64,000 bases of DNA from positions 1,736,001 through 1,800,000 of the forward strand of contig NZ_AP019827.1 in the NCBI RefSeq assembly GCF_008327825.1, written 5' to 3'. Source of the DNA: Leptotrichia shahii. Its GTDB lineage: Bacteria > Fusobacteriota > Fusobacteriia > Fusobacteriales > Leptotrichiaceae. Every line of letters begins with the position of its first letter. The first letter of the stretch is position 1. Both the position numbers and the translations under genes were made by a program. Shown here piece after piece: positions 10,901-51,654 of this stretch. Below the pieces are notes generated by a model. That model did no database searches, had not been told where the DNA came from, and saw only the letters and a list, made by a program, of their open reading frames with translations.

Positions 10901-10919
10901 AATATTATTTTTATATTTT

Positions 10920-11021
10920 ATACTAAATCTCATTTAAAAATAAAAGTTATATCTTATTTGTTAACAGAGATCAAGACTTCTTGCAAAGAATTTCATAACC
11001 ATTTTAAATGGGAAATAGTAT
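10920..11021. repeat. 102-bp MITE-like element with imperfect inverted ends
   Basis: The left end ATACTAAATCTCATTTAAAA (10920-10939) matches the reverse complement of the right end (11002-11021) at 17 of 20 positions. The same end sequence bounds the larger element at 39217-39566, and a lone copy lies at 54553-54568. No open reading frame is inside. The -35 box of the next gene starts 8 bases after its right end. Confidence 0.5.
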
Positions 11022-11028
11022 TAATTTT

Positions 11029-39216: not shown

Positions 39217-39566
39217 TTATACTAAACTCCATTTAAATAACGAATTTATTACAAACTTTTCTAGGAAAGGATAAAAACCTAATATTTTCAAATAATTAAA
39301 ATATAATTTTTACTTTTTAAACAGAATCTAATATAAACTGATCCGTCGGAGCATTTTTCTGTGCTGGCAAAACTGTTTGAGTATAGCGAGTTTTTTATCA
39401 ATGCAGAAAAATGTCGTAGACTAGCCATAGGTTGTAGGATTTGCGGCGATGAGCAATCCTACAAAAATAAAAAAAAACATAGTAATTAGTTGAATGATTA
39501 TGAAATAGCTATCAAATAACCCTATTATAAAAATTTATTCCTATTTTCAAATGGGGTTTAGTATAA
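39217..39566. mobile_element. 350-bp MITE-like element with 18-bp terminal inverted repeats
   Basis: TTATACTAAACTCCATTT (39217-39234) and the reverse complement of 39549-39566 (TTATACTAAACCCCATTT) match at 17 of 18 bases. No protein-coding frame is inside. The element contains the two-hairpin structure at 39345-39475. The same ends, more diverged, bound a 102-bp element at 10920-11021. A target duplication could not be fixed with certainty. A transposase source in trans is unknown. Confidence 0.6.
39345..39475 (+). ncRNA. Two-hairpin structured element, copy A
   Basis: Hairpin 1: CATTTTTCTG (39352-39361) pairs with CAGAAAAATG (39404-39413) and encloses ACTGTTTGAG. A linker TAGACTAGCCATAGGTTG follows. 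Hairpin 2: GTAGGATT and GC pair with GC and AATCCTAC (39434-39444 with 39453-39462) around an 8-base loop GGCGATGA. Copy B at 51001-51123 has the same order, loop and linker with different stem bases. A plus-strand terminator lies at 39580-39622. Whether it is transcribed is not known; it could equally be a DNA-level element. Confidence 0.5.
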
Positions 39567-40052: not shown

Positions 40053-41890
40053 AAAGGGGCTGTCTCAAAATGGTTAAAATTTTGAGTTCAGCTTCTTTTT
40101 TTTTCTCCAAATTAAAAGCTCTCTAAATTTTTTACAGTTATCTGATTAGAATTTTTTCTAATCAAAGAAAAACTGCACTAAAAAATTAGAGAACCTTCTC
40201 TCTCTTAAAACTTAGTTAACAGTTAATTTATGAAGTTTCATGCCTTCACGTCCCTGCACTTTTTTATGAAAATATTTTCTTAAATTATATCCAATAGCAA
40301 ATAGTAAAGCTTCAACTTTAGTTTTAGATCTTTCACGGTATTTAAAGCGTTTAAAGTTCATGTTCTGCTTTAACACTCCGAATGCCCCTTCTACCTGAAT
40401 ACTCCTGTTCATCCTAAGCATTATTCCTTTTTCTGTCGCTATATTTTCCTGTGACTGCTTTCTAAACCTTAAAAAATTATCTGCTACATAAAGTTTTTTG
40501 TTATGAGATGTATTTTTACATTTTACTGCAAAAGGGCATCCTTCACAGTTGTTACATTCATATACTTTCTTTTCCGATATATCCGCTTCTATTTTTTTGT
40601 TTTGACGTATACCTGAATTCAAGTTTCTGATTATTTGCACATGTATATGTATCGGTTTCTTCATTAAATGACATATTTTCTACCCTTGAAATATCCTGTT
40701 TAAATTTTCTGCTTTTCTGCTTTTCATAATTTTGTGGCTTTATATATGGAGTATAGTTATTGTTAAAGAGATACTCATAGTTCTCTTCACTTTCATATCC
40801 TGCATCTGCAACAATATTTCTAAATTTTAAGTTTTTATTTTCCAATCCTGATAAAAATGGAATAAGCGTTCTTACATCTGTAGGATTAGGAAACAAATCC
40901 AGACCTACAATGTATTCAGAATTTACACCTATCTGTAAATTGTATGCCGGTTTCAGCTGACCATTTCTCATGTAGTCTTCCTTCATTCTCATAAACGTTG
41001 CATCCTTGTCTGTTTTAGAGTAACTGTTTCTATTACCACAAATTTTAAGGTGCATATTATACTCATTTTCTTTTGCTATGTAGGAAGTTACAGTTTCATA
41101 ATCTCTCTGCTGTTGAGTTTTACGGACTCCTTTTCCATAAACAAATTCAATATTCCTATCTAAGATTTCTTTTTCCAGATACTTTTCTATTTCATAAATA
41201 TCATTAAATTCAGTATTGTTATTTTCATTAAATGAATGCAAGAAATCATTTACCTTAATTTTTAATTTTTCATAAAATTTATTAACTGCTTTCTTTCATA
41301 CAAATGTATATTTATTTGCATTGGATTCAATTTTTGTACCGTCAATAAATACATTTTCCAAATCAATTTCATTTAATTCGATTAATTTATTTATCAGCTG
41401 ATAGAACAGATCTTCAATTTGAATTTTATAGTTGTCAATAAATCTGGCAACTGTGTTATGATCAGGGGCAGAGCTTCGCCTTAAGATCCACATGTAATTA
41501 ATATTTTCCCTACAATTTTTCTCTACAGCTCTAGTAGTATTAACACCGTCAAACATAGCATATGCAATGATAAAAAACATCTTATTAGCTTCAATTTTAT
41601 GCCCACGACCTTTATTTTTAGAGTATGCTTGCATTAAATATCTATAGTCCAATCCCTCCAATAATTTGCTAATTACTCTAACAGGTACTGATTTGGAGAT
41701 ATTAACTCCAATATCCATAGGAAAAAACAATTGATAATTTGGAAAAAATGTAGTACAATTAGTTGAATGGTTATTTTTGTCTGTCATAATTCAATTATAC
41801 CATTTTGCCGAGATTTTATCTCGGTTTTTTCTTTTTTCAGAAAAAAAGAAGCTGAACTCAAAATTTTAAACGTTTTGAGACAGCCCCTTT
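40053..41890 (-). mobile_element. IS1182-like insertion sequence with inverted ends
   Basis: The left end AAAGGGGCTGTCTCAAAA (40053-40070) is repeated inverted at the right end (41873-41890). The match continues inward for about 50 bases with small differences (AAATTTTGAGTTCAGCTTCT). It contains one broken transposase. No clear target duplication was found. Confidence 0.85.
40212..41787 (-). pseudogene. IS1182-family transposase with a nonsense mutation and a frameshift
   Basis: Three segments together give a full transposase. Segment 1 (41787-41296): MDIGVNISKSVPVRVISKLL, SAPDHNTVARFIDNY and FIDGTKIESNANKYTFV, then TGA. Segment 2 continues in the same frame (KKAVNKFYEKLKIKV... VADAGYESEENYEYLFNN). 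Segment 3 (40664-40212), in another frame, has ECNNCEGCPF and the C-terminal GVLKQNMNFKRFKYRERSKT. The TGA (41296-41298) replaces a likely Trp codon. The shift falls in a run of seven A near 40600. The copy is probably inactive. Confidence 0.85.
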
Positions 41891-49673: not shown

Positions 49674-50546
49674 TTACTTTTTATTCAGCAATGGGAATCC
49701 CAATTTCTCCCTTGCCTCCACAAATTTCTCTGCACACTTCTTAGCCAAATCTCTAATTCTTAAAATATAGGACATTCTTTCTGTGGTACTGATTGCTCCT
49801 CTTGCGTCAAGGTTATTGAATGTGTGTGAGCATTTTAGAACATATTCGTAGGCTGGGAATACTAAGTCGTTGTTTAGGCAGTTTTGGGCTTCCTTTTCGT
49901 ACATATCAAAAAGTTGGAAGTGCATTGGAACGTCTGCTACTTCAAAGCTGTATTTTGACAATTCATACTCAAACTGAAATCTTCTTTCTCCGTATTTTAC
50001 ACCTTTTGTCCATTCTAAATCTTTTACATCGTCCTTATTTTGCAAATAAAGTGCGATTCTTTCAAGTCCGTAAGTTATTTCAGATGGAACAATGTCAACT
50101 TCCAGTCCTCCAACTTGCTGGAAATATGTAAACTGTGTAATTTCCATTCCATCCAGCCAAACTTCCCATCCTAATCCCCACGCTCCAAGTGTAGGGCTTT
50201 CCCAGTTATCTTCCACAAATCTTATGTCATGTTCCTTAGGATTAATTCCTAATGCCACCAAACTTTCTAAGTAAAGTTCCTGAATATTTTCTGGCGATGG
50301 TTTCATAATTACCTGAAACTGATGATGTTGATACACTCTGTTGGGATTTTCACCGTATCTTCCATCTTTTGGACGACGTGATGGCTCAACATAGGCAACA
50401 TTCCAAGGTTCAGGACCCAGTGACATTAAAAAAGTGTCTGGATTAAACGTTCCCGCACCTGTTTCAATATCGTACGGATTTGATATTATACATCCTTTAT
50501 CTCCCCAAAACTTTTGAAGAGTTAATATAATTTCCTGAAAAGTCAT
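49674..50546 (-). CDS. glyQ: Glycyl-tRNA synthetase alpha subunit
   Basis: A 290-residue class II synthetase subunit with [57 protein letters not shown] and [20 protein letters not shown]. It carries the catalytic core; glyS follows. AAAGGATAG precedes the ATG. No T-box motif is visible upstream, although 650 bases of non-coding DNA lie there. Confidence 0.97.
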
Positions 50547-50704
50547 TTCTCTCTATCCTTTCTCTATTTTTCCTATTTTTCTATCTAAAATATCTTTACT
50601 AAATTAAATCTGCTCATAATACATTAATCTTACTAAATTTTCATTTTAGATTATTTTGATTAATAATTATTACTCTTATTTTATTTATTTTAGTTTTTTG
50701 ACGC

Positions 50705-50728
50705 AGAGGTATCAAACGCCATACCTCC
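50705..50728 (-). repeat. Hairpin related to hairpin 2 of the two-hairpin element, copy C
   Basis: On the minus strand GAGGTAT and ATACCTC form a 7-bp stem (50721-50727 with 50706-50712) around an 8-base loop GGCGTTTG, one base different from the GGCGATTG loop of copy B. The upstream linker of copies A and B is not present. Confidence 0.4.
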
Positions 50729-51000
50729 CTTTTCGCAATAACAATTATTTTAACATCTTTAACTGATTATCACTTAAAAGTTATGGCGAAAGTTCTACGA
50801 ACTACTCCCGCTTTACGCAAAACTTTCTTATAAAAGAAAAATAGAACTCGCTTTTGAATAAAAGTTATTTTAATCTAAATAACTTTATTTAATTTAAAGT
50901 GTTTTCCAAAAGCTCAAATAACTATTTTTCTTCTAACAAAATTTTGCTTGGAAATTCATTTAACCAAATTGCCTTTGTATAATTAAATAAAAATTGTCGT

Positions 51001-51123
51001 GATTTTTTGGAAATGAAAACGACTGTTTGAGCGAAGTTTTACGTAGCAAGTTTCGTTTTTGTTTTCAAAAAATGCTTAGACAAGCCAGGGTTGCAAGGGA
51101 AATGGCGATTGATTTCCCTTGCT
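51001..51123 (+). ncRNA. Two-hairpin structured element, copy B
   Basis: Hairpin 1: ATTTTTTG and AAAACGA (51002-51021) pair with TCGTTTTTG and CAAAAAAT (51053-51072), enclosing ACTGTTTGAG. Linker: TAGACAAGCCAGGGTTG. Hairpin 2: GCAAGGGAAAT (51093-51103) and ATTTCCCTTGC (51112-51122) form a perfect 11-bp stem around GGCGATTG. It shares loops and linker, but not stem bases, with copy A at 39345-39475. Lies between lspA and glyQ on the strand opposite to both. Confidence 0.5.
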
Positions 51124-51195
51124 TTCAAAAAAATAAAAAATATAAAAATACAGGGATAACATTTATTAACAAAATTCATTTTATAAAATTACTTT

Positions 51196-51654
51196 TTATT
51201 TTTTAAAATATTTTCTCGCCAAATAATCAATTATAATAATATAAATTCCAATATGCACATACATATCTGCTACATTGAATACGAAAACCCAAATTCCTCG
51301 AAAATCTATCATGTCAATCACATATCCCCGAAAAATTCTGTCAATCATATTTCCCATAGCTCCTGCGGCAACTACTGCTGCTCCTATTTTTGTCCATTTG
51401 CTATAGTTCTTAAAATTTTTGTATTCTGCAGCAATTACGTATACAATTAAAACTGCACTTGCTATTGTAAATAAATTGATTTTTCCTTGCAATAGACCAA
51501 AAACTCCGCCATGATTTTCAACATAAGTCAAATGAAAAAATCTTTTTATTAATGGTATTGAAAAACCTTGCGTTCCACCTGCTATGTTGTACATTAACTG
51601 CTTTGTAATCTGATCTAATGCAGCTAAAACCAAAATAATAATTATATAAGGCAT
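51196..51654 (-). CDS. lspA: Lipoprotein signal peptidase
   Basis: A protein of about 152 residues with four membrane helices that cleaves prolipoproteins at the lipobox. The catalytic aspartates lie in AMGNMIDRIFRGYVIDMID and FNVADMYVHIG; the N-terminal ALDQITKQ and HLTYVENHGGVFGLL are also conserved. The frame runs back to 51714 inside ileS, but GAGGAGA lies 5 bases before the ATG at 51654, so that is the start. It follows ileS by 20 bases. It serves the many lipoproteins in this window. Confidence 0.94.
   Translation of the reverse strand: MPYIIIILVLAALDQITKQLMYNIAGGTQGFSIPLIKRFFHLTYVENHGGVFGLLQGKINLFTIASAVLIVYVIAAEYKNFKNYSKWTKIGAAVVAAGAMGNMIDRIFRGYVIDMIDFRGIWVFVFNVADMYVHIGIYIIIIDYLARKYFKK

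Follow-up and report, generated by a model that had tools for sequence, protein, structure and literature searches.

A new, unusually modular family of Leptotrichia MITEs with a two-hairpin core

Introduction

A 64-kb stretch of the Leptotrichia shahii genome (C1:1736001-1800000, hereafter the window) holds two copies, A and B, of what had been described from the letters alone as one element of two hairpins with conserved loops and different stems, and the question is whether such an element is a structured RNA, a piece of mobile DNA, or a mobile DNA that is also kept as RNA. The usual view of structured MITEs is one of debris, with hairpins formed by the terminal repeats; in the present case the hairpins are internal modules that fall into three stem classes, with constant loops and strand-specific wobble, in two MITE backbones with unrelated ends. 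We describe a new, unusually modular MITE family, and find it probable that non-autonomous MITEs of Leptotrichia, moved in trans as DNA, have this two-hairpin module as their structured core and would preserve it as an RNA that can fold.

Copies A and B share their order and loops but differ in their stems

Both copies lie where the original prediction had placed them and follow one order, hairpin 1 with its conserved internal loop, a linker (TAGCCATAGG in copy A) and hairpin 2 with its 8-base loop (Table 1). The stem bases differ between A and B, and pairing is kept in each. Folding stability exceeds that of 200 of 200 dinucleotide shuffles for either copy (z = -3.3 for A, -3.7 for B), and the spaced pattern CTGTTTGAG..GAGTTT does not occur in 100 shuffles, so that chance is not expected to produce it. 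The predicted shared order with differing, paired stems is thus borne out, and both copies are real, but a pair understates the element: a third unit lies on the minus strand directly left of copy B, which is the right half of a divergent module pair, and the 2.16-Mb genome as a whole yields about 32 covariance-model matches at E<1e-3.

Table 1. Features of the module and its MITE vehicle in the window
Feature	Position	Strand	Description	Basis
Type-3 MITE with copy A as core	39218..39565	+	348 bp, non-coding	Common clean boundaries in alignment
Left terminal inverted repeat (TIR)	39219..39248	+	ATACTAAACTCCATTTAAATAACGAAT..	80-86% identical to both ends of the L242 IS630-family element
Right terminal inverted repeat	39533..39564	-	ATACTAAACCCCATTTGAAAATAGGAATAAAT	81% identity over 32 bp to right end of IS630 element, E 9e-5
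Copy A hairpin 1	39345..39421	+	Closing GTC/GAC clamp, long stem, ACT/AGT with 3' TT bulge, internal loop GTTTGA/G, apical loop	Fold; class statistics
Copy A linker	39422..39433	+	TAGCCATAGGTT	In all classes kept as (T)AGNC..AGC..GGG
Copy A hairpin 2	39434..39462	+	Stem GTAGGATTTGC/GCAATCCTAC; loop GGCGATGA at 39445-39452	Folds; covariance-model match
Copy B hairpin 1 (type 1)	50995..51082	+		Folds; nhmmer match
Copy B linker	51083..51092	+	AAGCCAGGGT	Read in sequence; class consensus
Copy B hairpin 2	51093..51122	+	Stem GCAAGGGAAAT/ATTTCCCTTGC; loop GGCGATTG at 51104-51111	Folds; covariance-model match
Inverted partner of B (type-2 unit)	about 50703..50949	-	Hairpin 1 = 50911-50949 + 50805-50852 with apical insert	nhmmer matches; homologues
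Hairpin 2 of type-2 partner	50703..50730	-	Loop GGCGTTTG	
Secondary module in type-2 unit	50733..50804	-	Between linker and hairpin 2; AGTTCGTAGAACT hairpin and TTTCGCC..GCGAAA hairpin	Seen directly in sequence; homologous inserts L017, L210
Composite element (type-2 minus / type-1 plus)	50645..51180, approximate	.		Like arrangement with IS630-type TIRs in L210 (734 bp), L234

Three stem classes are built on constant loops

Comparison of the copies resolves three classes with mutually unrelated hairpin-1 stem sequences: copy B belongs to type 1, its inverted neighbour to type 2 and copy A to type 3. Shared across all three are the internal-loop motif ACT-GTTTGAGC...GCG-AGT, in which two bases, TT, bulge out on the 3' side (the segment ACTGTTTGAGC..GCGAGT-TT), a linker with AGC and GGG, and the hairpin-2 loop, with the variants GGCGATTG/GGCGTTTG/GGCRATGA. 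The apex of hairpin 1 takes inserts of discrete sizes, about 2, 11 or 58 nt, and a second small module, a short hairpin followed by TTTCGCC..GCGAAA, is seen as an insert either within hairpin 1 or ahead of hairpin 2 (in L210, L017 and the window), the L017 and L210 inserts being at the same and another site. Units occur singly or as inverted pairs. At locus L103 the module and the end of a coding sequence overlap. Pairing of linker AGCC with loop GGC as a pseudoknot was considered and dropped, as the linker varies between AGCC and AGCG with no matching change in the loop.

Distribution of the module

Further copies in the L. shahii genome were located first by pattern scan and DNA similarity and then with a covariance model of linker and hairpin 2. 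The same model detects the module in 13 of 13 genomes of the genus Leptotrichia, giving the further copies that the original prediction expected of such a search. In this oral genus the number of copies may differ more than hundredfold between species, with one match in G006, 11 in G004 (8 at a stricter cut-off), at least 79-95 in the richest species and at least 114 in G012, all of these counts being lower bounds. In 20 other genera of the family or order (Fusobacteriales) the model finds nothing beyond one weak match (E 0.005), and an exact pattern scan of about 85,000 GTDB species, one genome each, matches only Leptotrichia records (L. hongkongensis and Leptotrichia sp. oral taxon 879). Among the genomes searched the module is therefore confined to Leptotrichia, the one weak outside match aside. 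A pattern scan of viral contigs yields four matches, all of them due to chance and lacking the hairpins.

Pairing is conserved by compensatory change in hairpin 2 and type-1 hairpin 1

Two sequences cannot prove covariation, and we used dozens of copies. For hairpin 2 (50 unique rows, 9 pairs) the share of paired cells is 88.9%, compared with a mean of 65.6% and a maximum of 69.8% after shuffling and a maximum of 61% in a slid control, and two-sided change is seen in 113 cells against at most 45 in 500 shuffles. Type-1 hairpin 1 (54 unique rows, 20 pairs) is 96.7% paired versus 88.8% when shuffled, with 82 two-sided cells against at most 40. The copies are related and the shuffles therefore overstate significance, but the slid control, which preserves relatedness, agrees with them; covariation is statistically significant in both hairpin 2 and type-1 hairpin 1. 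The predicted covariation holds for these stems; type-3 hairpin 1, the class of copy A, has sequences too uniform for such a comparison and shows no excess (5 two-sided cells against up to 7 in shuffles).

The module rides in MITEs with IS630-type ends

Twenty further copies from 7 genomes align along the whole copy-A MITE and diverge exactly at its ends, and BLAST across the genus recovers many copies of about 355 bp. The window copy contains no ORF of 80 aa or more, and among 68 loci the midpoint of the unit falls within an ORF of at least 70 aa in 13; the element is thus short (348 bp), non-coding, multicopy and mostly intergenic. Its TIRs (28-32 bp, 81-86% identity) match both ends of L242, an element of 1115 bp whose two ORFs encode an HTH protein (HTH_33) and a DDE_3 endonuclease, i.e., an IS630-family transposase, which makes this an IS630-family MITE. 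A transposon of this family with matching ends of about 30 bp is present in two sister genomes, and copy-A-type TIRs are also found on further elements in L260 and L344. Nearly all copies end in A-TA-CTAAAC...GTTTAG-TA-T, a candidate TA target-site duplication; for those of IS630 type no empty sites were recovered. It is well supported, from the identity of the ends, that an IS630-family (Tc1/mariner-like) transposase acting on these ends in trans would mobilise most copies.

The suggested link to a mobile system is supported, the module being carried by MITEs with IS630-type TIRs. The copies are not, as the original prediction had allowed, only inactive fragments of a known insertion sequence, because the MITE core has no significant similarity to the interior of the IS630 element beyond the ends of about 30 bp. 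Type-2/type-1 inverted pairs in the arrangement of copy B have IS630-type ends at two other loci (Table 1); around copy B itself such TIRs are not recognisable, and the outer TIRs of the window composite element are eroded or lost. That composite repeat lies within 50546-51196, between glyQ and lspA, where seven sister genomes (L174-L180) have instead a stretch of about 700 bp, apparently a membrane-protein gene, a replacement rather than a simple insertion, so that locus B gives no clean empty site. At L189 the remnant of an IS630 transposase gene has a copy-A-type MITE attached to its 5' end, which indicates that these MITEs also land in their presumed helper.

The original prediction also named a REP-like DNA element, and inverted hairpin pairs, extragenic position and high copy number are indeed what a REP/BIME-type element moved by a RAYT (Y1 HUH transposase) would have. 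We consider this very improbable. The Y1 transposase domain, PF01797, is undetected in G007, G009 and G010, each with at least 82-84 copies, whereas G006 has 4 PF01797 matches and 1 copy of the module; RAYT/IS200 genes and module copies show no correlation in their co-occurrence; and IS630-type TIRs together with target duplications of about 10 bp point to DDE transposases.

A second MITE backbone carries the same module

These duplications are seen in G012, where a type-1/type-3 pair lies inside an element of 462-482 bp with ends GATGGTTTAAAA.../GACAGAGTAAAAT..., unlike the IS630-type ends. Matching 10-bp direct repeats stand on both sides of it at L310, L319, L323, L328 and L329, and the elements of about 470 bp (L307-L329) are read as a recent burst of DNA transposition with target duplications of about 10 bp. 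Only MITE-sized copies, and no autonomous element, were found with this TIR. We propose that a second transposase, one that makes target duplications of this length, would move the G012 backbone in trans. One structured module is thus found in two MITE backbones, those with IS630-type ends and the G012 MITE with unrelated ends.

Wobble pairs point to an RNA of one strand

Read along the strand from hairpin 1 to hairpin 2, hairpin 1 has G-U and A-C cells in ratios of 86:8, 9:1 and 52:7 for types 1, 2 and 3, a total of 147:16 that comes from about 10 stem positions in copies related to one another; G-U is common at about 10 positions and A-C at none. This bias points to an RNA of the hairpin1-to-hairpin2 strand. 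For each of the 142 units the plus strand also gives a better fold than the complementary strand, an advantage that is partly due to base composition, the z-scores of A and B being similar on both strands. Taken together, constant loops and linker, compensatory exchange in the stems and tolerance of wobble on one strand suggest that the module within the MITE is maintained as an RNA able to fold, its direction running from hairpin 1 through the linker to hairpin 2, and selection at the RNA level is moderately supported by these sequence patterns.

The pairing could instead be a property of the DNA, with MITE quasi-palindromes kept perfect by template switching or palindrome correction in replication and no RNA function, an explanation that we regard as possible but unlikely. 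It suits hairpin 2, which is nearly all Watson-Crick with little G-U excess (13:4 and 2:2); single positions can show any of the four pair types, G-U intermediates are few, and a DNA-level cause such as palindrome correction or template switching would there explain the data as well as RNA would. In two locus groups (L103/L011/L104, and L105) the core of hairpin 1 is inverted relative to the stem arms, which means that the palindromes rearrange, or flip, as DNA, again in line with such an origin. What it leaves unexplained is that loops and linker stay constant while the stems change, that hairpin 1 tolerates G-U on one strand, and that a strand-asymmetric 3' TT bulge is common to three classes.

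The module could also be a small RNA gene, trans-acting or protein-binding, with a promoter in the spacer, an RNA read outward, and MITEs as its vehicles; this too has a low probability in our estimate. The plus-strand RNA bias and the presence of one module in two unrelated backbones fit it, as does a TATAAT-like block that most type-1 copies have about 14-20 nt before hairpin 1, with differing sequence farther upstream. However, a promoter scan (-35/-10) of both regions finds nothing above shuffles at the right place upstream of hairpin 1, neither region has an intrinsic terminator (a GC-rich hairpin and then a T run; the tail after hairpin 2 is A-rich), the copy number ranges from 1 to at least 114 between species, and there is no known target. 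Of the RNA roles in the original prediction, a small RNA family would fit the strand-specific wobble, with transcription itself a candidate feature; a guide or processing RNA is not supported, as an unsystematic look saw no associated effector gene.

Orientation to host genes gives no support for a function inside host mRNAs, as there is no bias towards sense: of 55 copy-A-type loci with callable neighbours, 14 are sense and 26 antisense where the genes run co-directionally (p=0.08), 13 are flanked by convergent genes and 2 by divergent ones. Divergent promoters thus rarely have an insertion nearby, which says nothing about an RNA role.

On the reading that we favour, a structured MITE core kept as RNA, the IS630-family transposase would move the DNA of most copies and a second transposase that of the G012 copies, as TIR identity and target duplications indicate. 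The module might be transcribed by read-through or from the AT-rich, TATAAT-like upstream spacer; its two stable arms might then act on their own RNA or locus by protection, processing or insulation, an effect through which intergenic insertions could be tolerated and the element persist. If the RNA reading is true, these elements clearly invite the question of whether MITE RNA is under selection for a function. We also entertain, as a rather doubtful extension, that these are genus-wide mobile small RNA genes, a covarying two-hairpin RNA with interchangeable stems that at least two unrelated transposon backbones took up because the RNA helps the element or the host, such that a functional RNA would spread by DNA transposition.

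Relation to known repeat families

The element combines features of four known families without belonging to any of them. RUP (repeat unit of pneumococcus) is likewise a high-copy intergenic MITE, with ends that match IS630-Spn1 and a proposed movement in trans (PMC3049150, PMC2229807), but is a simple 107-bp element with no other signature of structure or function (PMC2229807), whereas the core of ours is modular, with two hairpins, three stem classes and units that stand alone or in inverted pairs. The BOX elements of pneumococcus are also modular, length-variable and highly structured; they are built as boxA-boxB(n)-boxC, are transcribed, and have ends that have been compared with ISSpn2 (PMC3049150), and by description their sequence is unrelated. 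CIR elements of Caulobacter and Brucella share the shape of two long hairpin arms and a linker with a conserved terminal loop, in which a GANTC methylation site is exposed, and their mobilisation is unclear (PMC2229807); the Leptotrichia TIRs are clear, and its loops, GGCGATTG-like and GTTTGAG, are different, GANTC being absent from GGCGATTG, GGCGATGA and GTTTGAG. RNA hairpins of the Correia/NEMIS MITEs of Neisseria can affect host transcripts through RNase III processing, and in NEMIS the TIRs themselves form the processed stem (PMC2229807, PMC10969869), whereas the Leptotrichia hairpins are internal modules distinct from the TIRs. In line with the original failure to recognise a known family, Rfam at gathering threshold matches only tRNAs in the window, a scan of copy A at E<=10 gives chance matches far below gathering scores, and four loci give nothing at E<=1; a literature search, thin on subscription journals, found no paper on Leptotrichia MITEs of this kind.

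Other mobile sequences in the window

Just downstream of the copy-A MITE, at 40212-41241 on the minus strand, two overlapping ORFs with DDE_Tnp_1/DDE_Tnp_1_6 domains form an apparently frameshifted IS with GGGGCTGTCTCAAAA at one end. At 10919-11022 we observe a candidate mini-MITE of about 100 bp that has IS630-type ends (TACTAAATCTCATTTAAA ... TTTAAATGGGAAATAGTA) and no hairpin module, and similar pieces of about 115 bp are found at L241, L249, L250 and L251.
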